In this document: positions 19,750 through 39,300 of the stretch, piece by piece | Position numbering within the stretch: position 1 is the first letter of the stretch | Layout: each line of letters begins with the position of its first letter | NCBI GenBank assembly: GCA_003168265.1 | Contig: PMSV01000019.1 | Span: forward strand, 310,001-374,000 | Direction: 5' to 3' | DNA length: 64,000 bases | From: Chitinophagaceae bacterium | GTDB taxonomy: Bacteria > Bacteroidota > Bacteroidia > Chitinophagales > Chitinophagaceae | Translations under genes and position numbers: made by a program | The notes under the pieces: generated by a model | Database searches by the model: none | Told to the model about the DNA's origin: nothing | The model's input: only the letters and a program-made list of their open reading frames with translations

Positions 19750-20748
19750 TCATTGTTTTGTTGCCATTGCTATTGCTTTGTTTTTACCCAGTTTGGCCAG
19801 ATAAGTGAACAAGAACAGTCCAACGGTCAGCACGGAAGCACACATAATGAGTTTGATTGCACTGGGCTTAATAACCAGCATCGCCCCTATAAACTGTACA
19901 AACAAGATGATATATAAAAATTGCGCTATGCGTTTTCTTGGCAGTTTATTAACAATGAAGGCCCCGAGAGGAGCAAAAAATATAACCAAAGGCACGCAGG
20001 CGATCCACATTTCAAACGCCGCAGGCTGAAAATCCTTCAGGATTTGAGTATGAATAAAAAAACCTAAAATGGTCTCAATAGTCATTATAATTACGGAAGA
20101 TGGGGTCGCCACTTTTTCCGAAATTCCGTAATAAATTGTCATAATGCAATAGGTAAATATATTGATCCCAGTCCCAAACAATGATGAAATGATGCCTCCG
20201 ATAAAGCCAAATAAAATCAACCTTGCCATATCCGAAGATCTGAAATCACTGATCTCATCAAATACCTTACGTGAAGGGCGCCTGTTCTCGCGCCATAATG
20301 CAATTCCGAAGCTTAGCCACAATGAAACAAAAAACAATTTTGCCATGACTGGTGATACCAAGGGTACAACTTCATAAGTTCCGAATACCAATCCAATTAT
20401 ACCTCCGAGGGTCACATATTTTATATAGTTCCATTCCACTTTAATGCGGAGTCCCAAAATAAGCAAAGCAGCCCCTGTCATACCGATACTCTGTATGGCA
20501 AAAGAAAAATTTCGCGCTGTTGCCGGGGGTATATTAAGCAGCAGGGTAAATATAGGGTAGGAAATTGCCGCACTTCCCTCAGGACTGGAACCTGCGACAA
20601 ATGAACCGAAAATCATAGTAAGTGCAGAGGGCCACCTTCTTGAATAAAGACCGATCAAATCGAGATGTCGTATATATAGCAGCCAGCAAACGAGCACAAT
20701 GATTAGAAAAACAAAATAAAGAAAGGGTGTTTTGGTTTTTGATTTCAA
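19750..20748 (-). CDS. TauE/SafE-family membrane exporter
   Basis: The 332-residue protein has about nine to ten hydrophobic helices. It carries the TauE/SafE signatures, including FGSFVAGSSPEGSAAISYP near residue 48, GGIIGLVFGTYEVVPLVSP and the second-half repeat FIGGIISSLFGTGINIF. Family members export sulfite, sulfoacetate or other organosulfur anions. The substrate here is unknown. It starts 15 bp after the DUF2798 gene. A second family member lies at 57074-57874, and the two are not close copies. Confidence 0.85.
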   Translation of the reverse strand: MKSKTKTPFLYFVFLIIVLVCWLLYIRHLDLIGLYSRRWPSALTMIFGSFVAGSSPEGSAAISYPIFTLLLNIPPATARNFSFAIQSIGMTGAALLILGLRIKVEWNYIKYVTLGGIIGLVFGTYEVVPLVSPVMAKLFFVSLWLSFGIALWRENRRPSRKVFDEISDFRSSDMARLILFGFIGGIISSLFGTGINIFTYCIMTIYYGISEKVATPSSVIIMTIETILGFFIHTQILKDFQPAAFEMWIACVPLVIFFAPLGAFIVNKLPRKRIAQFLYIILFVQFIGAMLVIKPSAIKLIMCASVLTVGLFLFTYLAKLGKNKAIAMATKQ

Positions 20749-20763
20749 TGAAATTATTTTTAC

Positions 20764-21027
20764 TTATCTCGAATCTTGCTTAAAGTTATCGCAGTTCTGA
20801 TCAGGGCTGAATTTTATTTTGTTTGTCATTCTATTTGCAGTCGGGATTATGACCAATCCGAAAATAAATGCAACCGGAAACATGGTGAGCCAGGTGCTCA
20901 TTATTTTTAACGCCCAACCATCATGAAATCCAAAATTCCTCAAAACTCCGATACAAGCCATCATCAAGGTCATTGCCCAAGTATAAATGCTGTATTGATA
21001 TATTTTCTGAACTTGATATCCATACAT
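20764..21027 (-). CDS. DUF2798 small membrane protein
   Basis: The 87-residue protein has two transmembrane helices (about YTWAMTLMMACIGVLRN and WLTMFPVAFIFGLVIIPTA) and a charged C-terminal tail, matching DUF2798. The function is unknown. It is paired with the TauE/SafE gene. A hairpin between it and susD suggests that this pair may be transcribed separately from the SusCD operon, or only by read-through. Confidence 0.75.
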   Translation of the reverse strand: MYGYQVQKIYQYSIYTWAMTLMMACIGVLRNFGFHDGWALKIMSTWLTMFPVAFIFGLVIIPTANRMTNKIKFSPDQNCDNFKQDSR

Positions 21028-21054
21028 TAACTGTTTTCAATTAGACTAAATTTT

Positions 21055-21093
21055 AAAATGCCTGAAAGTTTTTTGAAATCTCCCAGGCATTTT
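21055..21093 (-). terminator. Hairpin terminator after susD-like gene
   Basis: AAAATGCCTG (21055-21064) and CAGGCATTTT (21084-21093) form a 10-bp stem just past the SusD stop codon at 21096. On the minus strand the stem is followed by a short T/A-rich run. It probably ends the large operon. Confidence 0.65.
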
Positions 21094-21095
21094 AA

Positions 21096-22397
21096 TTATT
21101 GTTGTTCGGACACGGGTAAAGGGAATTCCGTCCAAACCTGGTCACCTGGCCTGTCGATTGGTAAGGAGCTCAAAAGATTATACCTGCGCAAGTCTAACCA
21201 GCGGTGCCCTTCACAATATAAGGAATACCTTTTCTGGTTCAGCATCTCCGTAATAAGTGCGGATTGGGTCATCGCCCCCGAGTAAGCGGCCAGGTTGTGC
21301 CCGGTCCTTATGATATTGATCGCATTGACTCCATCCGAAAGATCATTATTCTGAATATTTGCTTCTGCATAAAGCAATATCAATTCTTCATTACGGATTA
21401 TGGGCACAGGAGCAGTACTTGAAGTATATACCCAAACATCCCTATCGCTGCTCAGGCCATCGAGGGAAGCAACTGCAATGCGTAGGGTTGCCTTATTGAT
21501 CCTGTCATCGCCAGGTTCGATATCCTCGGCAAAAGAGGGATGTGCTACCCGAATTTCACCTGTTTGGTTTTGAGGGATAAAAAATGTATTCAACTGATCA
21601 CCCAACCCGGTTCCGAATACATCAAATACGCCGAGATTAAAATCACCGGTCAGGCTAAAAAACGATTGGCCCAGGTCAGTCAATGCAGCAGACCAGTTTT
21701 GTTGATAGACATCTAATCTGGCAGCAAGTGCACGATTGAATTGAGCCAGTCCCTGCGCATTACTGAAGTTTCCAAAACCGGCAAGAGTGAATACAATGTC
21801 CGCATTGTTAAAAGAACTCAAACCCGAATCAAGCAGAGAAGAAATTGCAGCGAGCGCAGTAACATTAGTTACAATAGGCCCCAGGTTATTAGGGTCATTG
21901 ACATTTATACGGATCCCATTTGAATCACTGAGATTCAGGTTCATCAACAATTGGTAAGCTTTAATGGTCTGGGCAAAACCAATATATCCGCTCCGCTGAG
22001 CCGCAGTTATCTGGGTTGAATTCGTAGCTGCCTGAATGAGTATATTGCAATTTTTTACTACTGTATACCTTGAAGCCCAGGGATTGGTTATATAAAAATT
22101 GCTATTGCTCAGTGTAGCTCCGCCACCACCGAGCAGGTCGGTGACATATCTTGGTTCCGAGTTTGAGAAATGATACATCTCCCTCCCGATGATGCCGATA
22201 TCGTCAAGATAAAGAGAAAGATTAGTACGCAAGCCTGATTCGGTTCCGCTTACAAGGTTGTTGAGCTCACTTGCAGAAGCATTGGAGATAAAGCTTTGGA
22301 CTGTTGCATCGTTAAGGTCGCCGTAATCCTTGGCGCATGAATTGAACACCAGAATTGCGCCTATGCTCAATAAATATAGATATACGCTCTTTTTCAT
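21096..22397 (-). CDS. SusD/RagB-family outer-membrane lipoprotein
   Basis: The 433-residue protein has a lipoprotein signal peptide (MKKSVYLYLLSIGAILVFNSC, Cys21). Its N-terminal helical TPR-like part and C-terminal motif QKRYSLYCEGHRWLDLRRYN are diagnostic of SusD/RagB. SusD proteins form the lid over the SusC transporter and bind the substrate at the cell surface. It follows the SusC gene by 17 bp. It is somewhat short for the family (usually about 500 residues). The ligand is unknown. No glycoside hydrolase is in the operon, which argues against a simple polysaccharide. Confidence 0.92.
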   Translation of the reverse strand: MKKSVYLYLLSIGAILVFNSCAKDYGDLNDATVQSFISNASASELNNLVSGTESGLRTNLSLYLDDIGIIGREMYHFSNSEPRYVTDLLGGGGATLSNSNFYITNPWASRYTVVKNCNILIQAATNSTQITAAQRSGYIGFAQTIKAYQLLMNLNLSDSNGIRINVNDPNNLGPIVTNVTALAAISSLLDSGLSSFNNADIVFTLAGFGNFSNAQGLAQFNRALAARLDVYQQNWSAALTDLGQSFFSLTGDFNLGVFDVFGTGLGDQLNTFFIPQNQTGEIRVAHPSFAEDIEPGDDRINKATLRIAVASLDGLSSDRDVWVYTSSTAPVPIIRNEELILLYAEANIQNNDLSDGVNAINIIRTGHNLAAYSGAMTQSALITEMLNQKRYSLYCEGHRWLDLRRYNLLSSLPIDRPGDQVWTEFPLPVSEQQ

Positions 22398-22414
22398 ATT
22401 TAATTTTTATAGTA

Positions 22415-25378
22415 TTAAAAATCGAAGGTGATATGGAAATCTGCACGTTTTGATGCAGGATAAGGATCCACATCCACACCGCTTGAAAATCCTGATCCAA
22501 AATTGGAAACTTCAGGATCATAGGATTTATACTTTGTAATGGTCACATAATTGTTGAGTGAAAGTCCTATCCTCACCGCTTTTATATAGTCTACAGGAAG
22601 GTTGGTGAAGGAATAATACAATCCTATTTCGCGCAAACGCAGGTAGCTTGCCGTCTGTACAAATTCATGTGCATCCGTACCCACCTGCATGATCCTGTAA
22701 ACACCATTAGGTACTCCCAGTTTATTGGTTACCTGATCATAATCTGCGCTTGTTCCGCCAAAATCATTTTCAAGATTAGTGAGATTGATGTTTTGGCCGC
22801 CTTGTTTCCAATGTATCAAAAAGCGGAGGCTTAATTTATTGAAAAAAGTAACTTCATTATAAGTGCTCATTTGGAATGTCGGCTCGGCATCCCCAAGCTT
22901 GCTGACGCCTCCCGCGCCATTAAGCCCGAGTATCTGAGTTGCAGATTGTCCCTGTTGTATTTGGAAGGATCCAAGAACATACCCAAAAGAACCCTGTGGC
23001 ACCGATGGAATCGTTAATTCAGTAACAAGTGATCTGTTAAGCCAAAAACTTACAGTGGTATTCCAGACAACCGTCCTAGTCTCCACTACTCCTGCATTCA
23101 TGCCAAGCTCGACACCGCGGTTGCGCAGATTTCCTGCATTCGCCCAGGCACTGGAAAAACCAGAGGAAGAAGGCGGATTACTTTGCATCAGGAAATCAAA
23201 TATATCCTTTTGATAGTAGGTAAGTTCAAAGCCCAGCCTGCCTTTCAGCACACTGAAATCAACCCCGGTTTCAAACTCCGTTTGCCTTTCTGGCTTTATA
23301 TCCGGTTGTCCCTCTTGTGGATTCACCAAAAGTCCCGGGTTTCCTGCAATATTTGAAATGGAAAATTCAGTGAATTTGCTCCCATAAGCCGGGACATTAT
23401 TTGCCTGGCCGTAGGCAGCCCTTAATTTCAGATTATCGAATACATCTCCCTTTATAAGATCCCACCTGGTAAGGTTCAATGAAATACCGCCTTTTGGGTA
23501 AACGTAATATTTTGCGACTTCTCCATTGTTTGAAGACCTGTCGAAACGGACTCCGCCAGTAAGCATCAGCACGTCATTTAAATTTGCTTCTTCCTGTGCA
23601 AAAATTCCCTGGTTCTGGAATTTCGTCCTCAACTGGGTACCATTCAGTGCACCGGCCTGGTTGATATTGGTTTGGCCCGATATAACCTGTGTTGCCACGT
23701 CGAGCACATTATTGTAATCACCTGTTTCCTGAGTAAGGCCCGCTGAAGTAGTCATTGAAAATTTATCAGTTGGAGTCAGGGTATTTACCAGAGAAAGTAT
23801 ATAATTGGTATTCAGGTTACTGGTAAATCCCTGTACGGTTGTTCCTTTGTTAATGGCTTCAAATTGAAGGATGCTTGGAAAAATGGCATTTGTTTCAAGG
23901 TCATAAAAGTCAATCCCGCCTCTCCCAATCAATTTGGTCGTGCTTTTTATGCTTTTCTGCAAAGTTGCATCAAAGCTTAATCCTGTTATAAACCGATTAA
24001 CGGATTCATTGTTAGTCATCAATGCTATGGTTTGCAAAGGATTTGAAGCCGCAAAAGGATTATTCGGGTAAATGCCCGCCGAATCATGAAGCTGGGCAAA
24101 ACTCGGCGTCGATGAAAGTGCAATACCCAAAGAAACTCCGGTATTATCATTTCCGGTCAATCCTCTGTCCGCAGAAGAGTTGATATAATTTGTAGTGATT
24201 CCGATCTTAATGTTGTCTGTAATATGATGATCCACATTCAGGCGCAAACTGCTATTTCGATAACCTGTGTTTTTTACGATTCCACCTTCATCCTTTTGTG
24301 CTGCTGAAAAATAAAACCCGGTTTTTGAATTGCCGCCACTGACGCTCAGGACAGTATTTCTGGCAAAACCAGTATTGCCGAAAACCTCCTTTTCATAATC
24401 ATAAATCTGCCCTTTTGCCTGTGCAGCAAGAAATTCCTGGCTCAAAAGAACACCTGTGGCGCTGTCACTTGACAGACTTGCCGCTCTTTCTGCATTGAAT
24501 TGACGAACACCCAATAATTTGCGAACTCTTATTTCTCCTAGATCCTGGGAAACAGAAATTTTGGTCCTCCCTTCTTTCCCCTTTTTGGTAGTGATGATGA
24601 TCACCCCAGCCGCAGCCCTTGATCCATAAATTGCAGCAGCAGAAGCTCCCTTAAGTATTTCAATGCTTTCGATATCCTCCGGTCTAATATCAGCGATGCG
24701 ACTTGAAGGGTTATCCTGCGTACCACCGGCCGCATTGGATGTCGGTAGGCCATTTGCAAGCGCATTGGTAACAACATTCAGACCTGCAGAAGTTGCCGTA
24801 TTATCGACAAAGACACCATCTACAACATATAAGGGTTGTGTATTCCCGTAAACTGAAGTAACGCCCCGTAATTTCACTGAAATGCCGCCCCCGGGAGCGC
24901 CGTCATTTGCATTGATATAAGCTCCTGGTATCTTCCCTTCCAGTGCGGCATCAAATGTCTGTGCCGGCGCAACACCATCCAGCTCATTCGATGATATTGT
25001 TGCAACAGCGTTAGCAAGGTTCCTTCTTTTCACTGAAGTGGCTAATCCTGTGACAATTACTTCATCAAGATGTGCCACGTCTTCGTCCAGTTTCACATCC
25101 ATAAATTCCAATAAGTCACCCACCTTTATAGTTTTCGATTTGTATCCGGCAGAACTGATGATCAATCCGGCCCCTGGGGGAACAGTTAGTCTAAATTTAC
25201 CATCAGCATCCGTTGCAGTTCCCAGCGCAGATTGATTTACGGTGATGCTTGCACCCACTATGGGACCGCCTTTATTATCGGTAACCTTCCCCGTTATCGT
25301 TTTAGTTTGTGAAAAGACATGCTCTGGTAAAATCGCAATGCATGATAAAAACAGTACAGCAAGAAATAGCATTCTCAT
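22415..25378 (-). CDS. SusC/RagA-family TonB-dependent transporter
   Basis: The 987-residue protein has a signal peptide, then a carboxypeptidase-regulatory-like domain (about 24-105, TITGKVTDNKGGPIVGASIT). The plug follows, with the SusC signature IESIEILKGASAAAIYGSRA (about 235-255), then a 22-strand-type barrel ending in KRADFHITFDF. It imports a nutrient across the outer membrane with TonB energy and pairs with the SusD gene downstream. Upstream, 54 bp away, is the FG-GAP/ASPIC gene. Confidence 0.95.
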   Translation of the reverse strand: MRMLFLAVLFLSCIAILPEHVFSQTKTITGKVTDNKGGPIVGASITVNQSALGTATDADGKFRLTVPPGAGLIISSAGYKSKTIKVGDLLEFMDVKLDEDVAHLDEVIVTGLATSVKRRNLANAVATISSNELDGVAPAQTFDAALEGKIPGAYINANDGAPGGGISVKLRGVTSVYGNTQPLYVVDGVFVDNTATSAGLNVVTNALANGLPTSNAAGGTQDNPSSRIADIRPEDIESIEILKGASAAAIYGSRAAAGVIIITTKKGKEGRTKISVSQDLGEIRVRKLLGVRQFNAERAASLSSDSATGVLLSQEFLAAQAKGQIYDYEKEVFGNTGFARNTVLSVSGGNSKTGFYFSAAQKDEGGIVKNTGYRNSSLRLNVDHHITDNIKIGITTNYINSSADRGLTGNDNTGVSLGIALSSTPSFAQLHDSAGIYPNNPFAASNPLQTIALMTNNESVNRFITGLSFDATLQKSIKSTTKLIGRGGIDFYDLETNAIFPSILQFEAINKGTTVQGFTSNLNTNYILSLVNTLTPTDKFSMTTSAGLTQETGDYNNVLDVATQVISGQTNINQAGALNGTQLRTKFQNQGIFAQEEANLNDVLMLTGGVRFDRSSNNGEVAKYYVYPKGGISLNLTRWDLIKGDVFDNLKLRAAYGQANNVPAYGSKFTEFSISNIAGNPGLLVNPQEGQPDIKPERQTEFETGVDFSVLKGRLGFELTYYQKDIFDFLMQSNPPSSSGFSSAWANAGNLRNRGVELGMNAGVVETRTVVWNTTVSFWLNRSLVTELTIPSVPQGSFGYVLGSFQIQQGQSATQILGLNGAGGVSKLGDAEPTFQMSTYNEVTFFNKLSLRFLIHWKQGGQNINLTNLENDFGGTSADYDQVTNKLGVPNGVYRIMQVGTDAHEFVQTASYLRLREIGLYYSFTNLPVDYIKAVRIGLSLNNYVTITKYKSYDPEVSNFGSGFSSGVDVDPYPASKRADFHITFDF

Positions 25379-25432
25379 TTTGTAAGTTTTAGTTTTGATT
25401 ATTAAAAAATAGGAATTCTGAAAATATTATTC

Positions 25433-27715
25433 TCATTTAGTTCCTGGTGCACATGAAATCATTTGCATATTTGTTTGTTTTGACTGGTTCCTGAAACTAA
25501 TTTGTTTCAGTTTCATTTTTTCGATCTGTCCATCCCCTTCTCTGATCCTTATGAATTGACAAGGCTCCATATTTTTAAATACCTGCACGATCCCAGTGGT
25601 TGGCCATTTTATAATCAGCTCATCTATAATTTTTGCTTTGCCAATCCCGATTTCCTTTCTGAATGGGCTTGAGCCGAAACTGGCTCCGGAATTGACATCC
25701 ATATAGACAGTCCTTTTCACGCTGTCTTCTGTAAATTTGACCACAATATGGGCCCCTATCGCGGAACGGTTGGATTTTGTCCCTTCAAGTAAAATACTTA
25801 TCCAATTATTCTTATTCTGACCAGGATTTATGTAAAAAGAATTATAAAACGCATCTCCCGGATAAACTCCCCCAACTTCAATAAAAACATCCTGATCGCC
25901 ATCATTATCTATATCGGCAAACGCTACTCCATGACCCTTCTGTAAATTCCCAACCCGGGCCGAGCTGGTAACATCTGCAAATTTTTTCCCATCAACGTTC
26001 TTGAACATCTTATTTGGAACAAGGGATCTGAAATCAGGGTTGCCAGTGCCTAAATACATATCCGGCCAGCCGTCATTATCGATATCTCCAAAATTTGCGC
26101 CCATAGCAAATACGGGCTGATCCAGTCCTGCACTCTTGGTCACATTTGTGAATGTACCATCATGGTTATTCCTGTACAGGTACATAGAACTTGTAGAGGC
26201 AGGCAATTTGCCATTATTGAGCGCCTGGGCGGCTGCAGTGATTGCCAGGGAACCATGAAACTTGTAACCGCAGACAAAGATATCGGGCCAACCATCATTG
26301 TTATAATCCCAGAACCATGTCGGAAAAGTGTAAGTGGTATCTTTATCAAGTCCCGCCTCATGTGTTGCATTTTCAAATTGAGGGATTTTGCCCTTAACAG
26401 CTTTGTTTTTAAACAATATTTTTTTACCAGCCAAATCGGATATAAAGATATCAGGCCAACCATCGTTATTGTAATCGGCAACAGTGACTCCTTTCATAAA
26501 AGCAGTTGCTTCACAACCTGCCTCCTTTGCAACGTTTGTAAACGTACCATCGTGATTGTTTATATAAAGTTCTGAAGGATGAGGAGGGCCTTTGGTAAAA
26601 ACATCAGTTTCATTACCTATAAACAAGTCAAGCCATCCGTCGTTATTGAAATCTGCCCAAACGGCAGTCTGGGTAGGGCCAAAGGATAGGATACCACTTT
26701 CTACAGTAACATCGGTAAATGTTCCGTCTCCATTATTTCGAAGCAGGGTCTTTGGCTGTTTAGTGAATTCTCCCAACCATCCGCCACGCAGGATAAGAAT
26801 ATCCGTGTATCCATCGTTGTTATAGTCTGCCTGAACGATATTAAGTCCACCTTTGATTTTACTCAATCCTGATTTTTCAGAAAGGTCAGTAAATGTCCCA
26901 TCGCCGTTGTTTTTAAAATAGTGCATGGATTCATTTAAGGACAAGGAAGAAGTAATGATATCGAGATAACCATCATTATCAAAATCATCCACAATCGCTC
27001 CACCAGCCATATTTCGAAACTTGTTTATTCCCATGTCGCCGGCCATGTCCTCAAAAGCTTTCATCTTAAAAGAGGAGGTATCTTCATCTAAAGCAGGGAT
27101 TAGAAAATTTGCCGGCACTTTTTGGGGGTATATACCGATAGTCATGAAAGCAATATTGAGCAGCCATCTTGATTCAAGATCGTCTGGATTCTCAATTAAG
27201 ATTTCCTGATATGCATCTATGGCCTTTTGAGAAGCCGATGGATCCATATATACTCCATTGCTCTTAATCGGAAATATACATGATCCTGATGAATGATCCA
27301 TGATGCAATTATTCCTTTCTCCCAGGCGCAAATAGGACAATGCCAGATACTTTTTAGCGTCTATCCCTAGTCTTTCAACACCATAATTTTTTGCATTGCC
27401 TGCTACATATTTGAATATCTCAATCGCCTCCGTTTCCCTTCCAAGTTCCAATAAAGTCACAGCTTTAAAATAATTGGTTATCACGAAACGGCGATTATTT
27501 GGCGTCAGCACTCTAAGTAAGGAATCATAAAAAGTAAACTGCGCTCCACTGGAAAAAGGGTTGTCTTTATTATTGTCCGGTTTTAACCCTTCCTGATAAA
27601 GCAGTAAATTATCGCGCCTCGTGCAATAATTATTTATGCATCTATAGGTAAACGCGGTTAACACTATCACACAGATAACTGATGACATTAAAATGATTAA
27701 TTTCTTCCGCTTCAT
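25433..27715 (-). CDS. FG-GAP/ASPIC-UnbV (CRTAC1-like) exported protein
   Basis: The 760-residue protein has an N-terminal membrane or signal segment (LIILMSSVICVIVLTAFTYRC) and a helical TPR-like region (about 40-200). A seven-bladed integrin-like propeller follows, with seven Ca-binding loops of the DxDxDG type (DFDNDGYLD, DYNNDGYTD, DFNNDGWLD, DYNNDGWPD twice, DIDNDGWPD, DIDNDGDQD). Next comes an ASPIC/UnbV domain (WISILLEGTKSNRSAIGAHI). Such proteins often sit beside SusC/SusD in Bacteroidota, but their role is not established. Surface display and substrate or protein binding is likely. Confidence 0.9.
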   Translation of the reverse strand: MKRKKLIILMSSVICVIVLTAFTYRCINNYCTRRDNLLLYQEGLKPDNNKDNPFSSGAQFTFYDSLLRVLTPNNRRFVITNYFKAVTLLELGRETEAIEIFKYVAGNAKNYGVERLGIDAKKYLALSYLRLGERNNCIMDHSSGSCIFPIKSNGVYMDPSASQKAIDAYQEILIENPDDLESRWLLNIAFMTIGIYPQKVPANFLIPALDEDTSSFKMKAFEDMAGDMGINKFRNMAGGAIVDDFDNDGYLDIITSSLSLNESMHYFKNNGDGTFTDLSEKSGLSKIKGGLNIVQADYNNDGYTDILILRGGWLGEFTKQPKTLLRNNGDGTFTDVTVESGILSFGPTQTAVWADFNNDGWLDLFIGNETDVFTKGPPHPSELYINNHDGTFTNVAKEAGCEATAFMKGVTVADYNNDGWPDIFISDLAGKKILFKNKAVKGKIPQFENATHEAGLDKDTTYTFPTWFWDYNNDGWPDIFVCGYKFHGSLAITAAAQALNNGKLPASTSSMYLYRNNHDGTFTNVTKSAGLDQPVFAMGANFGDIDNDGWPDMYLGTGNPDFRSLVPNKMFKNVDGKKFADVTSSARVGNLQKGHGVAFADIDNDGDQDVFIEVGGVYPGDAFYNSFYINPGQNKNNWISILLEGTKSNRSAIGAHIVVKFTEDSVKRTVYMDVNSGASFGSSPFRKEIGIGKAKIIDELIIKWPTTGIVQVFKNMEPCQFIRIREGDGQIEKMKLKQISFRNQSKQTNMQMISCAPGTK

Positions 27716-27745
27716 AAAGAATGAATAAGACTTGCATTATAGAAT

Positions 27746-27806
27746 GAAGTTTTTCAAAATTGACTGCAAACAGCAAATTGTGATTAGTTAGTTCAATTTT
27801 GACTTC
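27746..27806. repeat. Long hairpin between operon genes
   Basis: GAAGT and CAAAATTGA (27746-27763, split by TTTT) are the inverse of TCAATTTTG and ACTTC (27793-27806). The hairpin lies in the 95-bp gap before the CRTAC1-like gene, with its start about 30 bp further downstream. There is no T-run on the minus strand, so a processing or attenuation site is as likely as a terminator. Confidence 0.4.
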
Positions 27807-27810
27807 TTAA

Positions 27811-28395
27811 CTAACAATGAGTGGCGTTCGGGTATCTGCAGCCCTGACAATATTTAGGGGGCTGTTCCGGGGGTTTTCTGTGAGCGGGCGAGAGCTCAAT
27901 GTTGTAGTTAAAGTGAAATAACCCCCTAAAATAAATATATTCAATTTTAAATTTTCCATCCCCAACATCATAGTCTGTTGTTAAATTCTTTATAGGGGAT
28001 GGGTTTTGATTTTTATTTTGCCCGGAATGGCGCAAATCGTTTTCAAATCTAAAAAACTCATTTTTCGCAGACTTTAATTTCATAACATTCTGATCAGCGA
28101 TGCACAATAATTCTAAAGAATCATTATAAATCCTGCGTTTGACATATTTATAGGTTAGGCCCCCAATATCTACCTGCCCCGCTACCCGTTCATATGATCC
28201 TGAATTGTTATAATATGGCAAATAGCTAACCGGTATCTTCACGGATACTAACTGGCTTTCATCATATTCCCCATCATCCAGCCTGGCTTCAAATTTTGAA
28301 TTGGCTGTTTCTTGTAATAAAAAAACAAGCAGATGATATCCGCACCAGTTAAATAACAGAATGCTCAGCAATAATATGGATGCTGCTTTCCTCAA
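27811..28395 (-). CDS. Single-pass membrane protein, paralogue of 31950-32513
   Basis: The 194-residue protein has an N-terminal hydrophobic helix (AASILLLSILLFNWCGYHLLVFLL). A periplasmic beta-rich domain follows, sharing the pattern LVSVKIPVSYLPYYNNSGSYERV...GGLTYKYVKRRIYNDSLELLCI with the 31950 gene. The C-terminal tail is Pro- and Cys-rich (PPEQPPKYCQGCRYP), which could bind metal. I do not recognise a characterised family. Its start directly abuts the stop of the AhpD-like gene at 28396. The paralogues bracket the AhpD/MFS block. Confidence 0.7.
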   Translation of the reverse strand: MRKAASILLLSILLFNWCGYHLLVFLLQETANSKFEARLDDGEYDESQLVSVKIPVSYLPYYNNSGSYERVAGQVDIGGLTYKYVKRRIYNDSLELLCIADQNVMKLKSAKNEFFRFENDLRHSGQNKNQNPSPIKNLTTDYDVGDGKFKIEYIYFRGLFHFNYNIELSPAHRKPPEQPPKYCQGCRYPNATHC

Positions 28396-28977
28396 TTATA
28401 TTGAATTTTCTGTCTGTGAAGCTGGCTGAACCAAAGAATAAATCTGATTGCTATACCCATTTTGCGCAACTTGCTTCGCACGTGGCGCATAAGTTGACAG
28501 ATCGGATGGGGTATTAGCAGCAAGGCCATCTACATACCTGTTGAACATGCAAAAAGCTGCGGCAATCAAAACTGTATCATGTATATCCTTATCAGTTGCT
28601 CCAAAACTTCGGGCAACATCCACATCCAATTGCGTAACGGACTTCCCGCTTTTCTGCACCTTTGCGGCAATATTCAATAATGCTTTCAGCTTATCTGAAA
28701 TTGGCGCATTCCTGTAATCTTTCCGTACCCGATCGACCAAGTCTCGATCGCCGTCCAAATAATAACAGGCAATTTCGCCATGTGAATTGTGGCAATAAAA
28801 ACAATCGTTCAAATAGGAAACATGGGTTGCTATGAGTTCTCTTTCGGCCCGGCTCAGTCCTGTCTCATCCCGTAATAAAGAATTGGCCAAATCGCATAAC
28901 GGAGAAGCTGTCTCAGGCCGGAAAGCCATTAAGCCCCTTATTCCTGCTAAATTATTATCAACTTTAATATGCGGCAT
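28396..28977 (-). CDS. AhpD-like (carboxymuconolactone decarboxylase family) peroxidase-related protein 1
   Basis: This 193-residue member of the AhpD/carboxymuconolactone decarboxylase superfamily has Glu47, Cys59, Cys62 and His66 in AERELIA...NDCFYCHNSHG, the proton-relay and CxxC...H set of AhpD peroxidases. The C-terminal half has DIHDTVLIAAAFCMFNRYVDGLA, the conserved helix pair. It is cytosolic. It would reduce peroxides or act on a thiol-linked substrate; the true reaction is unknown. It is the last of four paralogues in transcription order, with 11 bp separating it from the next. Confidence 0.88.
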   Translation of the reverse strand: MPHIKVDNNLAGIRGLMAFRPETASPLCDLANSLLRDETGLSRAERELIATHVSYLNDCFYCHNSHGEIACYYLDGDRDLVDRVRKDYRNAPISDKLKALLNIAAKVQKSGKSVTQLDVDVARSFGATDKDIHDTVLIAAAFCMFNRYVDGLAANTPSDLSTYAPRAKQVAQNGYSNQIYSLVQPASQTENSI

Positions 28978-28988
28978 AGTTAAAATTT

Positions 28989-29543
28989 TTATTTGTATTG
29001 ATAGAGATCATAATCAAGGTATCCTTCTTCTGCCCGTAGGGGGGCCCGGTTCACATAATACTGCCTGTCTTCCGGCGCCCATGTAGCAAGTCCGTCGACA
29101 TAACGGTTATACATGCAGAATGCAGCGGCGATCAGAACTGTGTCGTGAATTTCTTTGTCGGTAGCGCCCAGATTTCTTGCATCTTCGATTTGTTCCGGGT
29201 TGACCTTTTTTCCACCCTTCTGCACGCTTTCCGCGATAGACAATAACGATTTCAATTTGTCGGATATAGGCTCAGTGCGATAATCCATTTTTATACTGTC
29301 AATTGCAGCAATATCCCAACTAAGATAATGCCCTGCCAGAGCGCCATGAATATTCTGGCAAAAAAAGCAATCATTGAGCGAGGAAACATAGGTTCCGATC
29401 AGTTCCCTCTCGCCCCTGGTTAAAGTATTATTGTCATCCCGTAATAAGGCCTCTGCAAGCTCATTCAATGGCTTTGCAGTTGCAGGGCTAAACGCCATAG
29501 GGCCTCGGATACCCGGAAGATCCGGAAGATTAATATGTGCCAT
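28989..29543 (-). CDS. AhpD-like peroxidase-related protein 2
   Basis: The 184-residue protein keeps Glu47, Cys59, Cys62 and His66 at the same residue numbers as its neighbours (GERELIGTYVSSLNDCFFC, then QNIHGA). It is closest to the 28396 protein (LNDCF context, LPGIRG.MAF opening). Its 3' neighbour begins 11 bp later and its 5' neighbour ends 11 bp before it. The regular spacing suggests local duplication within the operon. The function is as uncertain as for the other copies. Confidence 0.88.
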   Translation of the reverse strand: MAHINLPDLPGIRGPMAFSPATAKPLNELAEALLRDDNNTLTRGERELIGTYVSSLNDCFFCQNIHGALAGHYLSWDIAAIDSIKMDYRTEPISDKLKSLLSIAESVQKGGKKVNPEQIEDARNLGATDKEIHDTVLIAAAFCMYNRYVDGLATWAPEDRQYYVNRAPLRAEEGYLDYDLYQYK

Positions 29544-29554
29544 TACATTTATTT

Positions 29555-30094
29555 TTATTGTTTAGGTAAAACATAACCCCTGGCCATTCTCTGGCCCATT
29601 TCCTCATAAACAGCAGGGTCGGTTGGCGTCCAGCTTGCTAAACCGTCTACATATCTATTGAACATGGAAAATGCCGCAGCGATAAGGACCGTATCGTGAA
29701 TTTCCCTATCGGTTACCCCATGTTTTCTGGCCATGGAAGTATCATCTTCGGTCACTTCTTTTCCCAGCACTTGTACCTTTCCCGCTATCTTCAACAGCGC
29801 TTTAAGTTTATCGCTTATGTTTGCCTGCTGCATATCCATCAATACTTCATCTACTATTTTTTTGTCTTCTCCGTATAGGCATCTTGAAGCCGCGGCATGG
29901 CTGCTCATGCAAAAAATGCATTGATTTCTGGATGAAGTATATGCAGCAATCAATTCCCGCTCTGCCTCAGATAAAGTAGACTCACCACGTAGTAAGACCT
30001 GGGCTAGTTCATACAGGGGCTTCCCTGTATCCGGCCTGAACATTACCAGGCTCCTTATTCCGGGAACTCCTTCCGGAACTTGAATATACGCCAT
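29555..30094 (-). CDS. AhpD-like peroxidase-related protein 3
   Basis: The 179-residue protein has the catalytic set again at Glu47, Cys59, Cys62 and His66, in the context SSRNQCIFCMSSHAA. This SRNQC form is shared with the 31311 protein and not with copies 1 and 2. Its first 40 bp overlap the end of the MFS gene. The start is supported by alignment with the other copies (MAYIQVPEGVPGIRSLVMF), so the overlap looks real and the genes are probably translationally coupled. Confidence 0.88.
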   Translation of the reverse strand: MAYIQVPEGVPGIRSLVMFRPDTGKPLYELAQVLLRGESTLSEAERELIAAYTSSRNQCIFCMSSHAAASRCLYGEDKKIVDEVLMDMQQANISDKLKALLKIAGKVQVLGKEVTEDDTSMARKHGVTDREIHDTVLIAAAFSMFNRYVDGLASWTPTDPAVYEEMGQRMARGYVLPKQ

Positions 30095-31314
30095 TGATTT
30101 ACATTTTTATTTGAAGTAAAGACTGTGGCAATTAACCCGATCAGGAATACGAATGAAAAAATAAACAGTGCGTTTCCATATCCTCCAAGAAATGATTGCA
30201 ATAATCCTATAAACAATACGGCAGTTGCCGTCAGCAATCTCCCGATATTAAAACAAAATCCTGTTGCGGTCGCCCGAATCTGCACTGGAAAAAGTTCAGG
30301 TATATAGACGGAGAGTACCCCCTGGCTCGCCCCAAAAAAGAAGGCAATCCCTGCTACTTCTGCATAGATCAGATTATTAAATGAGCTATTGGTCCTGAAA
30401 AGCAGAAAGCTGCAAATACTGCATGTCAAAAAACAAAAAATCATTGATTTTCTTGAGCCGATGGCATTCAATATCCAACCTGATAAAATGCCGCCGGTTA
30501 TTCCGCCTATACCAAAAATCATCATCACTGATCCGATTTTTTTATTAGCGTTCTCATCATGAATGATGCTATCCAGCCAGGTAGGTAACCAGGAAAATAT
30601 GGCCCAAAGTCCGATCAGCATCGAACCAAAAATGACTGACCCGGTAACCAAATTTTTTCTATATACAGCCGAAAAAGCAGTGATCGCATTTTTTTCTGCA
30701 ACGACTGTCTTATCAAGCTTGGATTTCCATTTTTCAGATTCCCTTATCACCCATATGGACATTATCGCAATCAGGATTGGGACGATGCCGATCAGGAAAC
30801 CTTGCCGCCAATTATTGGAAAAACTGGCAATCCATCCGGCGGAGAAAATACCGATGGGCATTGCAATAGAAAGAAAGCCCATAATAACTGCTTTTGACCT
30901 TTCATTCCATTCCTCAATCATAATGGTTGTTGTGACAACCAGAACGCCGCCCATGCCGAAGCCGCTTGCGAATCTGCAGAATGCAATGGCTATCCAGTGG
31001 TTCATAAATCCGGTAAGCATTGTGAAGAATCCATACCACCCAACAGAAAATAGCAAGGCTTTTTTTCTGCCGATTCTATCCCCGATCATTCCCCAGGAAT
31101 AACCACCAATTGCCCAACCAAAAACAAAGGCAGCATTGATATACGAAGCAGCAGTGCTGCTCTTATCCTGATCCATTGCGAATTCCTTCGCAACAGCAGG
31201 CAGATATATGCTCATTAATGAAGAAACTATTCCTCCGAAAGCCACGCAGATAAAGCATATGGCAAACAAAGAAACCTGATACCAGTTAATTTTATCCGGT
31301 TGGTCATTTTTCAT
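30055..31314 (-). CDS. MFS transporter (sugar/aromatic-acid symporter type)
   Basis: The 419-residue protein has 12 predicted helices. The MFS signature GDRIGRKKALLF lies in the loop between helices 2 and 3, and an acidic IPELFPVQIRATATGFCFNIGR motif typical of the sugar/organic-acid symporter branch lies near residue 345. It would move a small acid, aromatic or sugar-like compound across the inner membrane. It is embedded between AhpD-like genes, overlapping one by 4 bp (ATGA at 31311-31314) and the next by 40 bp. It is probably the inner-membrane partner of the SusC/SusD pair. Confidence 0.9.
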   Translation of the reverse strand: MKNDQPDKINWYQVSLFAICFICVAFGGIVSSLMSIYLPAVAKEFAMDQDKSSTAASYINAAFVFGWAIGGYSWGMIGDRIGRKKALLFSVGWYGFFTMLTGFMNHWIAIAFCRFASGFGMGGVLVVTTTIMIEEWNERSKAVIMGFLSIAMPIGIFSAGWIASFSNNWRQGFLIGIVPILIAIMSIWVIRESEKWKSKLDKTVVAEKNAITAFSAVYRKNLVTGSVIFGSMLIGLWAIFSWLPTWLDSIIHDENANKKIGSVMMIFGIGGITGGILSGWILNAIGSRKSMIFCFLTCSICSFLLFRTNSSFNNLIYAEVAGIAFFFGASQGVLSVYIPELFPVQIRATATGFCFNIGRLLTATAVLFIGLLQSFLGGYGNALFIFSFVFLIGLIATVFTSNKNVNQWRIFKFRKEFPE

Positions 31315-31880
31315 AATGGCTGTTTTCTTAAATGGTCATAGCCCTGAGACAATCGGTTATACCCATGCTCTTTTAACCTGTTTCCAAGATTGTTGTAAAA
31401 TTCCGGATTTGTCGGGGTCACTGTTGCAAGCCCATCGACATAACGATTGTATAAACAAAACAAAGCGGCAATGAGAACTGTGTCATGTATTTCAATATCA
31501 GTCGCTCCTTCTTCCTTTGCTTTTTGTATAGCATCGCTCGTTACATTCTTTCCGCTTTGCTGAACTTGAGAGGCAATGGTCAGCAATGCCTTCATTTTAT
31601 TACTTACAGGCGCGGAAGAAATATTTTCTTTTACCATTTCAGATGTATCAGGTTCGCCCAACAACACATTGGCCGCAGCCGTATGGGCTGCCGTACAAAA
31701 CCTGCACTGGTTCCTGGAAGAAACGATTGTTGCAATCAACTCCCGTTCACCTTCAGTCAAGGTCGAAGTCCCGCGCAATAGGATCTGGGTAAGTTCCCGA
31801 ATGGGCTGAGCCGAATCCTTTCTGTATTCAAGCAATCCGGTTATCCCGGGTAAATGTTCTTCCAATGGAATATAAGGCAT
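31311..31880 (-). CDS. AhpD-like peroxidase-related protein 4
   Basis: The 189-residue protein has Glu47, Cys59, Cys62 and His66 (GERELIATIVSSRNQCRFC, then TAAH). It belongs to the SRNQC subtype with copy 3. It is the first AhpD-like gene in transcription order, and its stop overlaps the MFS start (ATGA). The C-terminus is longer than in the others (NRLKEHGYNRLSQGYDHLRKQPL). Confidence 0.88.
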   Translation of the reverse strand: MPYIPLEEHLPGITGLLEYRKDSAQPIRELTQILLRGTSTLTEGERELIATIVSSRNQCRFCTAAHTAAANVLLGEPDTSEMVKENISSAPVSNKMKALLTIASQVQQSGKNVTSDAIQKAKEEGATDIEIHDTVLIAALFCLYNRYVDGLATVTPTNPEFYNNLGNRLKEHGYNRLSQGYDHLRKQPL

Positions 31881-31949
31881 TATCGATTATATTTATTTTG
31901 CAGGAATTCCTGGACAAGCGATTAAAATTTCTAAGAACCGGGAAAGATT

Positions 31950-32513
31950 TCAGGAAAGAGTGTCCGGAGGCTGTTCATCAATAACAGAAAATAATGAAGA
32001 AATATCATCGGAAAAATGAGAAGGCTTAATCGAAACTGCGACACTGGAATTGTTCAGTAAAAACAAATCGCCGATGGTATAATTGTCTGAAGAAAAACTC
32101 TTTGTAAGGTTTTTATGAGGGTCTGCTTTTTTGCTCTGAGAACTGGCCTGCAGATCGTTAACCAATTTGAAGAACTCGTCCTTTGCACTCTTTAAATACA
32201 TCACAGCGGAGTTTTGAATACAGAGGTATTCTATTGAGTCCTGATATAGCCTGCGCTTAACTAATTTATATATCAGTCCGTTAATTTCTATCTCACCGTC
32301 AACCCGCTCGAAAGTTTGAGAATTATTGCAATAAGCGAGGTCTGAAACCGGCACTTTAAGAGAGAGCAATTGCGCATCAATGTATTTGTCATCGTCAAGT
32401 TGTGACTCCATTTGTGCATTGGCCCTATCTTCGAGATAGGAAGTGAACAACCGATATCCAACCCAATTGAATAGGAGCATGGCAAGCAGAACTATGGTAG
32501 CGATACTTTTCAA
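31950..32513 (-). CDS. Single-pass membrane protein, paralogue of 27811-28395
   Basis: The 187-residue protein opens MKSIATIVLLAMLLFNWVGYRL (membrane anchor). Its periplasmic domain aligns with the 27811 protein through VPVSDLAYCNNSQTFERV, then INGLIYKLVKRRLYQDS and LKSAKDEFFKLVNDL. The C-terminal tails differ: this one lacks the Cys-rich end and finishes DEQPPDTLS. It is the first gene of the ten-gene cluster, 69 bp upstream of the AhpD-like gene. The function is unknown. Confidence 0.7.
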   Translation of the reverse strand: MKSIATIVLLAMLLFNWVGYRLFTSYLEDRANAQMESQLDDDKYIDAQLLSLKVPVSDLAYCNNSQTFERVDGEIEINGLIYKLVKRRLYQDSIEYLCIQNSAVMYLKSAKDEFFKLVNDLQASSQSKKADPHKNLTKSFSSDNYTIGDLFLLNNSSVAVSIKPSHFSDDISSLFSVIDEQPPDTLS

Positions 32514-32553
32514 AGTTCCTCAATTTAGGGAAATTTATGAAAATCTATATTAA

Positions 32554-34709: not shown

Positions 34710-36371
34710 TTATTTGGTCAGCCACATCGTAGCCGTAATGGCATCGGTACCTCCAAACTGAGATTGTATGGCCGCATTGTAATTCGTTGTATTGCTCACC
34801 TGTTCGTCATTCGGATATTGCCAGCGGATGGGGATCATCAAATTGGCCGTTCCGATGCCGGCGCCTCCCTGGTGGAAGGCGGGAACTCCTGTTCTTCTCC
34901 AGTTGTAATAAGGTTCCCATCCTGAGTTTTGCCAGAAGGCAACATATTTTTGAGTCAGGATCTGGTTCAACCCCGTTGCATTGTCTCCTGCATAAGCTAC
35001 ATTGGGGTTACTCAGGAAACCGGATACGCTAACTGTGACATTGTCCAATGAATTGGTTAAATTAACCGGGTTAAATAACGGGTAACTGATCGGCACCTGT
35101 ACACCATCGGCTAAACCGTAGAGGCTCAAAGAAGCATTGATCCCGTTCAGATAATAACTACTGCCGGATACGCCGGGGATCCAACCCAGGTTGGCGGCTT
35201 CGGCGATATTAAAGCACATTTCAGGATAGCCGATGATGATATAGGGTTCACAGGTCGAACCGCTGATATTGGGTCCTGAAGCATTGCCATAGTACCTGAG
35301 ATAGTTGTTATAGGAATATTCACCTCCACTTGCTCCTACAGTGATCTGGGAATAACCGGAATCGATATCAGCGCCCACATAGGCCGTAAAATCTCCGGGT
35401 TCCTTACCACTGGCAATCTGTGCCGGCGCTGGAGTGGCAGTTACAAATATCCTTGGATCCTGGTTGGCTGATAATATATTTATAAATGTATTGCACATAT
35501 TTTCATAGCCGACATAGGGCGTATAGTTCGGATAAAGGGGATAATTGTCTCTTGCCGGGCTAGAAAGATAGTTATAAATCAAATTGTCGCTATTGCCGGT
35601 CAGGATTGGATATTTGGTCGGGTTTTGAACGATGTTTGCAAACTGGCTTGGAATATTCAGGTCAGGATTGTCCAGGGCCCTTCTGCTCAGAGAAATCAAT
35701 ACCCTCAACTTATAGGTATTGATCACTTTTTGCCATCCGAGATAGGTCTGCCCGAAAATATCCCCGGTTGCATCTACGAGCGAAGTCGCATTGCCAGGTA
35801 TTGCAGCAAGATCGCCCATCAGGGTATTTGCCGTATCCAATAGGGCGAGGCAGTTTTGATATACATCATGCTGTTTGTCATAAGTTGGCGTGGGATAATT
35901 GGGGTTTCCGGCCTGGCTCATTGGGATATCGCCTACACGCTGCGTGTACCACACAAAAAGATAGGCCCGGAAGAATTTGGCCAGAGCAGTATACGCATTT
36001 GGAGTGGTCCCGAATTGACTGGCAGCCTGCTGTTCCATCAGTTCCACATATTTCAGAACACTGTACATGGTTGCCGTATTGCTCCAGTTATAGGTATTCG
36101 TGCCCCAATAATAAGGATAACTGGAAACAAAATATTGATTCCAACGCATGAGCTGATTCCAGGGTCCCTCATTGACATTACCGGCGACAGCATCCAGAAC
36201 ACCCCCGCCATTGTAGAGTTCATTAGTGATCCTGTTCAGAAGCAAGGTCGGAGGAACTGTTGTGGATGTACTTGCCTGGTTTGGGTTATCAAGCAAATCC
36301 CCTTTCTGGCAACTGCTCAAAACCAGGGCTGATAACCCGGCTAAAAGACAGAAAAGAAATGACTTTTTCAT
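34710..36371 (-). CDS. SusD-like (SusD_2 type) outer-membrane lipoprotein
   Basis: The start at 36371 gives the lipoprotein signal MKKSFLFCLLAGLSALVLSSC (Cys21); the frame extends six codons further. The mature 550-residue part has the N-terminal NPNQASTSTTVPPTLLLNRI and AKFFRAYLFVWYTQRVGDIP motifs of the SusD_2/RagB lipoprotein group. Its C-terminal end is PIRWQYPNDEQVSNTTNYN. It sits 21 bp downstream of its SusC partner. This subgroup often occurs with ligands other than starch, including peptides; the actual ligand is unknown. Confidence 0.92.
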   Translation of the reverse strand: MKKSFLFCLLAGLSALVLSSCQKGDLLDNPNQASTSTTVPPTLLLNRITNELYNGGGVLDAVAGNVNEGPWNQLMRWNQYFVSSYPYYWGTNTYNWSNTATMYSVLKYVELMEQQAASQFGTTPNAYTALAKFFRAYLFVWYTQRVGDIPMSQAGNPNYPTPTYDKQHDVYQNCLALLDTANTLMGDLAAIPGNATSLVDATGDIFGQTYLGWQKVINTYKLRVLISLSRRALDNPDLNIPSQFANIVQNPTKYPILTGNSDNLIYNYLSSPARDNYPLYPNYTPYVGYENMCNTFINILSANQDPRIFVTATPAPAQIASGKEPGDFTAYVGADIDSGYSQITVGASGGEYSYNNYLRYYGNASGPNISGSTCEPYIIIGYPEMCFNIAEAANLGWIPGVSGSSYYLNGINASLSLYGLADGVQVPISYPLFNPVNLTNSLDNVTVSVSGFLSNPNVAYAGDNATGLNQILTQKYVAFWQNSGWEPYYNWRRTGVPAFHQGGAGIGTANLMIPIRWQYPNDEQVSNTTNYNAAIQSQFGGTDAITATMWLTK

Positions 36372-36392
36372 GATTTTGTTTTTATTCATGGA

Positions 36393-39300
36393 TTAAAAAG
36401 TGAAGTTGAGGTTCATGCCCCAGCGGCGGAAAGTAGGTGAAGAAAGGGTTACATCCGAAGAAGTCCCTGATTGCTGCACTCCATAATTACTCACGTTTGT
36501 TCCGCTTCCATATTGGTCGATATCAAAATCCTTTCTTTTTGCAAAATAGAGCAGGTTACGCCCGACAAAGGAGATAGAAGCCGTTTTGATTGCTGAATTT
36601 CCCAACAACTTCTTCGGCAGACTGTAGGCTATCTGTACATCGCGAAGTTTAACGAATGTGCGGCTGATCATATAGTATTCGTCAAAATTGCTGCTGATAT
36701 CGCTGGATAAATAATTCTGAACAGTTACAGCCGTTGTATTGGGAGTAAAGGTCAAATCTTTCAGGTTGGATATCTGGCCATTGACATAGGTTGGTGTCCC
36801 GGAGGCGATGACGACTCCTGGAGCAACATAGGCTGCGACGATGGGCTGGGTTCCGTTACTTGTACTCAGCCATTCGGAAGCGCGGGCGGTTTTGAAAGCC
36901 CCCTGATCGGATTCAACTGCATTGCCGCCATTCATGGACTTATACCATACATCATCATAAACCTTGCCGCCAACCCTGCCATCAACCTGGAAGCTGAAAC
37001 TGAAACTCTTATAAGAAATGCGGTTGGTAATCCCGAAACTGTAATCCGGGTTAAGGTGGCCCAGGTATATATTATTGCTGAGACCGCTTGGAGCATTGAC
37101 CGGACCTCCATTGCTCATTACGATATTACCTAAACCATCCCTTACAAATCCGGTGCTGTAAAAATCATCCAGGCGTTCACCGATCGTATAATTATGATTT
37201 CCCACAGTGAGTAATGGCACTCCGGGATATATGGAATGAAGCACTTCCTTATAGGTGGACCAGTTGACAAGGAGGTCCCATTTGAACCCGGATCGAGTCT
37301 GTATGGGTGTCAGGTTCAGCAGTATTTCCCAGCCTGTTTTCAAAGTGGTCACCCCATTCACATTCTGATACTGATAGGTTGTTGAGGACGGAACAGGCAA
37401 CCCATAGATCTGTGGGCCATTGATCGTATTAAAATAAGTCAGATCAAGGCCAACCCGGTTATTGAACATGCGGTAATCCAAACCAGCCTCATATGATTTT
37501 ACATCGAATGGTTTCAGGTTGGGATCCGACTTGGTATTGGAATAGGTAACAGCAGGCTCATTGTTGTAATAGGTAGACAAACTATAAGCGCTTTGATTGG
37601 CATAAGTCGGTCCATCGTAGGAAGTGAAATTCTCAAACCCATAACCAAGCAAATTGTTGGTGCTTGCTCCTGTCCCTTGGAAATAACCATTGACCAGTGA
37701 ATAGGCTGAAGGTGCTTGTGAAGAGGTCAATGCTCCCTTTACGTCAGCGTAGGAAGCCCTTAATTTAAGAAAACTGATGGCCCTCGGCAGGTTCAGATAA
37801 TCCGTAAGGGAGGAACTGATAGACACCGAAGGATAGAAAAAAGTATTGTCTCCGCTCGGAAGGGTTGAGGTATTATCTACCCTGCCTGTGGTTGCAACAT
37901 TGAAAAAGTTCCTGTATCCCAGGTCGAAACTGTAATAGCCACTGTATACCTGCATTTTGGACCCCCAGTTAAAGGCCAGAGCAGGGGTCTGGGAGTTGGA
38001 GAGGCTATATACACCGGGCACAGCAAGGTCAACAGTTGTTGCCCATGAAGAATTGTATTGAAAGGAACGCTCGCTGGCTCCAAGGTTAGCAGAAAAATTC
38101 CAGTTCCTGATTTTAGGGTTATAGGCCAACAGGAAATCCGAATTGTTTTCCAGCAGGTTCCTCCTGTCTTCCCTGTAATCTCCGTACCATCCCCAATAAT
38201 ACCATGGCAGATATTGATTAAGTATCGTACCTGCAGGAACTTTTTCCGTGCGGGTCTGGCTCCATGTGGTGACCTGTGTACGCAGGCTTGCTTCGAGGTC
38301 ATGGGTAATCTTATAGGTAGCTTTTAAATAACCGTACATGTCCACCTTATTATGGCCGCGAAGCCATTGGTTAGCCATGAAATAGGGATTATTGTCGCGG
38401 CCATAGTTCTCGTTGTATTGTCTCAGGCCAGGGATCCCCATCGGAGATTTATAGTAATCTTTCAGATCTCGCACATCGTAATCGGAAGGGCCATATACAT
38501 TAAACATGTATACATAACTGTTGGGGCCATAATCCGCGTCCGGGATCTGGGGGGTGTACTGGAAGTTCATGTTGACATTGGTCTCGAATTTGAGGCGTGA
38601 ACTGATATCATAATCCGCAAATACATTCAGGTTATCCATATTCAGTTTTGAATTGGGATCAGTTCCCTTTTGGTATACATGAGAATAGGACATCCTGATA
38701 TCAGAATTGGCCCCTGAAGTGGACAGAGAGATATTATTGGTGGATAGAAACCCTGCATCAATAAAATTCCTGTAGTTGTTTCCGCCTATGGATTCCCAGG
38801 GCGTAGCCGAGCGTGTACCTGTAGCTACATCATAAGGGCTATTGTATTGCTGTATCAATTGTCCGTCAAAACGGGGTCCCCAGACTGGAAGACGCTGGGT
38901 ATGGTCATCCAGGCCGTTACCAAAGGAATAAAGGAAATGGGTGCCGCGGCCATATTCCGTCTGATCCTTTGGATAAACCAGGAAACCCTTATCCAGCATA
39001 TCGGAAGTGTTATAGCTAAGGGTCCAGCCTTTGCTGTCTCTTGATCCCCGCTTGGTTGTGACAACGATCGCACCGTTCTGGCCACGGAATCCATAAAGAG
39101 CTGCGGCATTTGGGCCTTTCAGAATGGTCATGGATTCAACATCATCGGCATTGATATTCCAGGTATCGGAATTGATGGGGACCCCATCTACAACGATCAG
39201 CATATCCTTAGTACCCCGGCTGATGATCTGGGGCCTTGTGAGCATTTCAGGAGAGGCCGCTATAGTAATTCCTGCAACCTTTCCTTCCAACTGATTGAAC

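Follow-up and report, generated by a model that had tools for sequence, protein, structure and literature searches.

The ten genes along the minus strand of the 64-kb window (by which we mean the whole stretch of DNA analyzed, C17:310001-374000 of a 4.3 Mb source genome) on balance probably form a dedicated import-and-processing operon, in which uptake through a TonB-dependent receptor and an MFS carrier would serve cysteine-based chemistry on an organic small molecule. This reading is based on the gene set, its conserved linkage, four orthologous clades of AhpD-like proteins held in fixed places, and the cysteine motifs of these proteins. The features of the operon and its flanks are listed in Table 1.

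Table 1. Features of the operon and its boundaries, in window coordinates; rows and support values refer to the tree of AhpD-like (CMD) proteins.
Feature	Position	Strand	Remarks
TAAATTG, tentative -7-like element	32521..32527	-	7 nt before smA start; by eye
smA	31950..32513	-	First gene, TTG start; small bitopic membrane protein; no Pfam/NCBIfam family
P1	31311..31880	-	AhpD/CMD-like; clade P1, 47 rows, support 100/100
MFS transporter	30055..31314	-	MFS_1 match; core partner of the AhpD set
P2	29555..30094	-	AhpD/CMD-like; clade P2, 37 rows, support 99/96
P3	28989..29543	-	AhpD/CMD-like; clade P3, 42 rows, support 99/93
P4	28396..28977	-	AhpD/CMD-like; clade P4, 22 rows, support 100/99
smB	27811..28395	-	Paralogue of smA
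ASPIC/UnbV (CRTAC1-like) FG-GAP protein	25433..27715	-	Hydrophobic N-terminus; optional member
SusC/RagA-type TonB-dependent receptor	22415..25378	-	TIGR04056, TIGR04057
SusD-type lipoprotein	21096..22397	-	PF07980
Hairpin, probable terminator	21040..21100	-	3' of susD; folding energy

Layout, boundaries and protein families

A first-pass annotation of this DNA had described ten consecutive minus-strand genes with gaps from -40 to +95 bp and a hairpin terminator at the susD end. The ORF map of the window reproduced these genes at the same coordinates, with intergenic distances, in the order of transcription, of 69, -4, -40, 11, 11, 0, 95, 54 and 17 bp. The hairpin also stood up to folding (-19.5 kcal/mol, z = -6.2, with none of 200 shuffles as good); a simple scan did not list it. 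On the 5' side lie DUF6886 and GNAT genes in the same orientation, as well as a 57-codon ORF whose end, judged by eye, is some 40 bp from smA, so that read-through from upstream is possible. In a genome of the same genus (G242, locus L113), the nearest ORFs 5' of the small-membrane-protein gene encode 92 and 750 residues, sizes other than those found here, and the 750-residue one lies on the opposite strand. The TAAATTG preceding smA may be a Bacteroidota -7-like element, as judged by eye against the consensus.

Beyond the hairpin, on the same strand, the window encodes a TauE/SafE permease and a DUF2798 protein (19750-21027), and a TauE-like gene likewise lies 3' of susD in locus L171 of the same genus. 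Upstream, at 34710-39728, is what is presumably a second SusC/SusD pair, accompanied by a tyrosine-phosphatase-like gene.

With the exception of the small membrane proteins, the parts of the operon belong to known families. The combination of SusC/SusD, propeller, four AhpD-like proteins and MFS carrier, as first proposed, was recovered with Pfam and NCBIfam: SusC scored 524.6 bits against TIGR04056 (cut-off 368.25) and 63.9 against TIGR04057, and SusD 53.4 against PF07980, all above cut-off, while the propeller reached 172.5 bits for FG-GAP and 35.0 for UnbV_ASPIC (cut-offs 26.9 and 23.4). All four AhpD-like proteins matched PF02627 with 45.1-51.5 bits (cut-off 23), and three of them exceeded the cut-off of TIGR01926, P3 falling just below it (80.0 against 81.8). 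A description of a cluster with this composition was not found in open PMC full text, outside whose coverage most subscription journals lie, which agrees with the annotation's remark that no such system was known to it.

The AhpD-like proteins and the MFS carrier

Our searches covered Bacteroidota, with 244 genomes of the family and 395 of the phylum, which are phylogenetically non-independent. A profile built from the four AhpD-like proteins matched 46 of the 244 family genomes at E <= 1e-15 and left 198 without a match at this threshold. The MFS carrier was matched at E <= 1e-60 in 29 of the 244, as a single copy in each, and in all 29 it lay within 500 bp of an AhpD-like gene. By its linkage, the AhpD/MFS gene set appears to be a conserved system, beyond chance assembly.

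Outside the family, MFS matches occurred in 22 of the 395 phylum genomes, at 24 places, and the AhpD profile matched 26 genomes at E <= 1e-40. Twenty phylum regions were fetched, and all 24 MFS places were viewed apart from the distant G483, G561 and G613. In some distant loci, such as L157, L158, L160 and L163, the MFS gene is accompanied by a TonB receptor gene and by AhpD-like genes, one to four in number, and L158 has ASPIC and haloperoxidase-like genes in addition; in L161, the MFS gene is followed by AhpD-like genes and then by the contig end. Ten viewed phylum loci (L153-L156, L159, L162, L168-L170 and L172, with L168 at a contig edge) hold MFS homologues of 35-40% identity without AhpD-like genes, so the carrier family alone is insufficient to define the system. 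Since four genomes (G340, G344, G352 and G513) possess one MFS copy beside AhpD-like genes and another apart, these distant homologues may represent a separate carrier. The aromatic ligand first offered as an example finds little encouragement in the carrier: it scored 161.8 bits against TIGR00895 (aromatic acid:H+ symporter), whose cut-off of 418.55 was not reached, and DGxD, the motif of these symporters in the first transmembrane helix, was found in the first 80 residues of none of 72 MFS sequences.

Gene neighborhoods were compared on locus maps of different origin. As named loci we took the 80 best among 572 confirmed matches to P1-type patterns, and a P1-type gene is therefore present in them by construction, while 40 family regions were picked by hand among the AhpD profile matches. 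At least seven of the best-80 loci turn up again in the fetched regions (L036 = L124, L040 = L127, L041 = L132, L077 = L140, L082 = L123, L090 = L129 and L093 = L167), so that counts over all maps, such as those of the gene after a small membrane protein or of its start codons, include some loci twice. ORFs on the maps were called mechanically, and the map label 'SusC' comprises SusC and similarly sized TonB receptors of other kinds.

A tree of 166 CMD proteins (162 distinct; rows of 160-230 residues), drawn from L111-L152 and 17 hand-chosen loci of the best 80, separates the four AhpD-like proteins of the window into four clades, with the support given in Table 1 from a bootstrap that had not fully converged. 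Its rows come from Chitinophagaceae, Sphingobacteriaceae, Spirosomataceae, Cyclobacteriaceae, Fulvivirgaceae and Leadbetterellaceae, among others; outside the tree, the labels P1-P4 are best-BLAST labels. Each clade tends to hold its own place in the gene order. P1 stands immediately 5' of the MFS or TonB receptor gene in 42 of 47 clade rows and P2 immediately 3' of the MFS gene in 35 of 37, the window included in both counts. For P3, the gene immediately 5' is another CMD gene in 32 of 42 rows (the window, which has the same arrangement, was not counted), and P4 directly precedes susC in 20 of 22 rows; the window is among the exceptions, because smB and the propeller gene lie in between. Old paralogues held in such fixed places are hard to explain by redundancy. 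A second AhpD-like pair, P2-like and then P1-like, is found in the source genome away from any MFS or receptor gene (L111:9638-10776, that is, G000 C21:23137-24275), and similar pairs are present in L141 and L142.

The motif E-x11-CxxC-x3-H is whole in P1-P4 of the window and in 153 of the 166 tree rows. The remaining 13 have Thr in place of the first Cys, and every one is of P1 or P2 type: P2 of L036, L117, L121, L124, L128 and L132, both P1 and P2 of L092, L101 and L109, and P1 of L094. Among these Thr-bearing proteins, a Cys occurs one position upstream in three P1 and two P2. Such proteins provide a natural test of which cysteine matters. At the position aligned with His132 of Mycobacterium tuberculosis AhpD, the residue between the cysteines, 184 of 187 motif-complete homologues have F or Y, and three have L or N. 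Given this replaced His, and the Thr that stands for the first Cys in some P1 and P2 proteins, it is doubtful that the set as a whole performs classical AhpD peroxidase chemistry.

These residues bear on the peroxide-type ligand of the first-pass annotation, which they weaken, and on the related idea of peroxide defence, in which four antioxidant AhpD-type enzymes would act while an oxidised lipid or aromatic compound is brought in, or disposed of, by the transporters. The family assignment to peroxidase-related TIGR01926, the CxxC motif and the top-scoring solved relatives of P1-P4 (2prr, 2pfx, 3c1l and 2oyo), which are named peroxidase-related or AhpD, are consistent with it, as is one CMD protein, of whichever clade, that figures among the induced antioxidant genes in a study of Zobellia on algae (PMC9296495). 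The CMD family as such is widespread, with matches in 12 of 14 control genomes. Nevertheless, the ten window proteins include no AhpC, and the F/Y at the His132 position and the first Cys replaced in some P1 and P2 argue against peroxide defence, which we regard as unlikely.

Receptors, propeller and scattered loci

A TonB receptor gene shares a run with the MFS gene in 62 of 72 runs from the best-80 named loci, and in 20 of 26 family-sample runs, where three of the six exceptions are cut by a contig edge. Because TonB receptors travel with the carrier in this way, import is likelier than export. They also make it very unlikely that the MFS protein is an efflux pump for the export or detoxification of a toxic metabolite, an explanation with which its weak, below-cut-off matches to efflux families, found among many others, would agree.

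The type of receptor varies, with two predominant layouts. Among the 80 named loci, 40 show the layout P1-receptor-MFS and nine contain a SusC-SusD pair; the window operon carries the SusC signature with an adjacent SusD, and the receptor of L060, a locus with the P1-receptor-MFS layout, lacks this signature. SusC/SusD is just one among several receptor types that the system uses. Of 30 orthologues of SusD (E <= 1e-150), 19 had an AhpD-like gene no more than 15 kb away; of the 11 unlinked ones, five belong to genomes without an AhpD profile match, and some may reflect contig breaks. In L174, L178, L179 and L182, the SusC/SusD pair sits between ORFs that we take, from their starts, to encode a large conserved protein and adenylosuccinate synthase (purA-like), and its neighbors in L177, L180, L184, L185 and L187 are similar in size to these. 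Next to a purA-like gene, SusC/SusD without AhpD-like genes occupies, in several genomes of the family, an unusual, housekeeping-like place.

The first-pass annotation had counted SusC/SusD and the propeller as parts of the unit, and it regarded routine separation of the SusCD and AhpD/MFS blocks as evidence against this. Co-occurrence is present between AhpD-like and MFS genes; SusC/SusD is separable, so that part of this counter-evidence is at hand, even though most close SusD orthologues remain linked, and together with the few SusC-SusD pairs in the best-80 loci this does not support core membership. The separability, with the gaps of 95 and 54 bp between smB, propeller and SusC, could also mean that two unrelated neighboring operons have been taken for one. 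In many loci of the family sample, however, the AhpD/MFS block leads into P4-susC-susD, and we consider two operons most unlikely. The propeller is an optional member: matches to the ASPIC protein at E <= 1e-150 occurred in 19 of 195 genomes, only some of them beside the AhpD block. Among the mapped propellers (14 aligned), the region before the repeats has a conserved NC-x3-H-x3-SC motif that may be a metal or disulfide site, and in G162 (C17:696813-700142) DUF3179 and ASPIC genes adjoin away from the AhpD cluster.

The small membrane proteins (sm) matched no Pfam or NCBIfam family. smA and smB, encoded at either side of the AhpD/MFS block, are 51% identical over 151 residues, and the AlphaFold model of smA (mean pLDDT 83.4, with the last third low) has a helix at residues 2-40 followed by a small alpha/beta part. 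On all maps, where some loci count twice, P1 is the gene after sm in 53 of 102 cases. Mechanical start calls gave TTG for 76, GTG for 26 and ATG for 5 of 107 mapped sm genes, again with some loci counted twice; the TTG of smA is at 32511-32513. The TTG and GTG starts hint that translation of the first gene is kept weak deliberately.

The source genome has four sm genes at E <= 1e-5, two in the window operon, one on contig C21 and one on C8. The C21 locus (L112) reads GH65-sm-VHPO-CMD-h323-VHPO-h284, in which VHPO denotes PAP2/vanadium-haloperoxidase-like lipoproteins, a label based on Pfam matches partly below cut-off, and h284 matches DoxX_2 below cut-off; both source-genome matches of a 441-residue haloperoxidase-like protein fall in this locus. 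On C8 (L173), sm is followed by a MetE-like gene and lies about 1.3 kb after the only DUF3179 gene of the genome; a TonB_C gene and, on the other strand, a DUF4249 gene separate DUF3179 from sm. As all four copies mark loci of the same partner families, their positions suggest an sm-marked regulon. In relatives such as L037, L045, L115 and L117, several of the accessory parts are gathered in one cluster with P1-MFS-P2.

The neighbors of related loci include DUF3179, VHPO, a MetE-C-like enzyme, an esterase, GH65, trehalase and LacI. DUF3179 is present in 62 of the 244 family genomes, in 26 of 29 with the MFS carrier and 36 of 215 without it (Fisher p ~6e-15, relatedness ignored). Several motifs are well kept: the positions of K-x6-RP, SGH and a late R-x5-H in 85% or more of 23 haloperoxidase-like proteins, CxxC in 36 of 36 aligned DUF3179 proteins, and HxC in 12 of 12 MetE-like proteins. 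PMC9312934 counts DUF3179 and a YciW-like AhpD protein among selenoprotein families, with UxxC/T and CxxU, which fits thiol chemistry.

Pfam confirmed the earlier statement that the ten window proteins contain no glycosidase, peptidase or esterase, and neither Pfam nor NCBIfam revealed a carbohydrate-active enzyme among them; this absence does not extend to some relatives, near which GH65, trehalase and esterase genes are encoded. It is conceivable, albeit doubtful, that the operon is a variant glycoside or polysaccharide utilisation locus. In that case its ligand would be a sugar conjugate, which GH65, trehalase or esterase from genes elsewhere would trim, with the AhpD set handling the non-sugar part. 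GH65 lies beside sm, VHPO or ASPIC genes in eight mapped loci, the C21 locus included, trehalase in three mapped loci and LacI regulators in five. For the GH65 protein of C21, the closest entry is 7fe3, whose deposition names it a candidate GH65 alpha-glycoside phosphorylase, and the copy in L034 exceeds the NCBIfam cut-off for kojibiose hydrolase. Against such a locus stand the lack of a glycosidase in the window operon, the minority of loci with sugar enzymes, and the prevalence of P1-receptor-MFS over SusC-SusD pairs among the best-80 loci.

Proposed function and comparison with known systems

In the import-and-processing operon that we favor, an organic small molecule would pass the outer membrane through a TonB-dependent receptor, which in this case is SusC, with SusD as its lid, and the MFS protein would then move the molecule into the cytoplasm, the direction of transport and the cytoplasmic site being our supposition. 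Four non-redundant AhpD-like proteins would perform thiol/disulfide chemistry on the imported molecule. CMD-fold proteins act as trimers or hexamers, and P1-P4 would on this ground probably form a mixed oligomer. The small membrane proteins and the propeller may be accessory parts with a periplasmic or cell-surface location.

As a first, tentative guess, the substrate might be a small organic acid or its glycoside, the glycoside being possible because a minority of loci carry sugar enzymes and LacI genes. Putative uptake and processing of a small molecule is thus retained from the first-pass annotation; its phrase 'rather than a polysaccharide' is weakened by the sugar-linked neighbors. A more speculative proposal, to which we give limited credence, is twofold: that P1-P4 constitute one hetero-oligomeric AhpD-fold enzyme for one substrate brought by its own MFS carrier and TonB receptor, and that sm marks a scattered regulon comprising the window operon, the GH65/haloperoxidase/CMD locus and the DUF3179/MetE-like locus, which together might be a Bacteroidota pathway that breaks down a glycosylated small molecule by oxidative and thiol-based steps. 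To our knowledge, many AhpD/CMD proteins have no known substrate, and a conserved operon in which four distinct members accompany a dedicated transport route through both membranes offers a direct way to find theirs. It also suggests that SusCD-type receptors serve something besides an ordinary glycan locus.

Compared with AhpD and the TIGR01926 peroxidase-related CMD proteins (COG2128, YciW-like), the window proteins have the CMD domain and E-x11-CxxC-x3-H in common; here, however, four paralogous clades are kept together with a transporter, F/Y takes the place of His132, and the first Cys is missing in some members. With SusC/SusD polysaccharide utilisation loci the operon shares the SusC and SusD pair, but it contains no glycan enzyme, its core enzymes are AhpD-like, and other TonB receptors fill the role of the pair in many relatives. 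The propeller resembles CRTAC1/ASPIC-UnbV proteins in its FG-GAP repeats and UnbV_ASPIC domain and matches the solved CRTAC1 structure 9etn, whereas it has a hydrophobic N-terminus and an extra region N-terminal to the repeats and is optional in the system. Finally, the best matches of the MFS carrier in NCBIfam and among solved structures are aromatic acid:H+ symporters (TIGR00895) and SLC22 organic anion carriers, and it differs from the symporters in its sub-cut-off score and its lack of DGxD.
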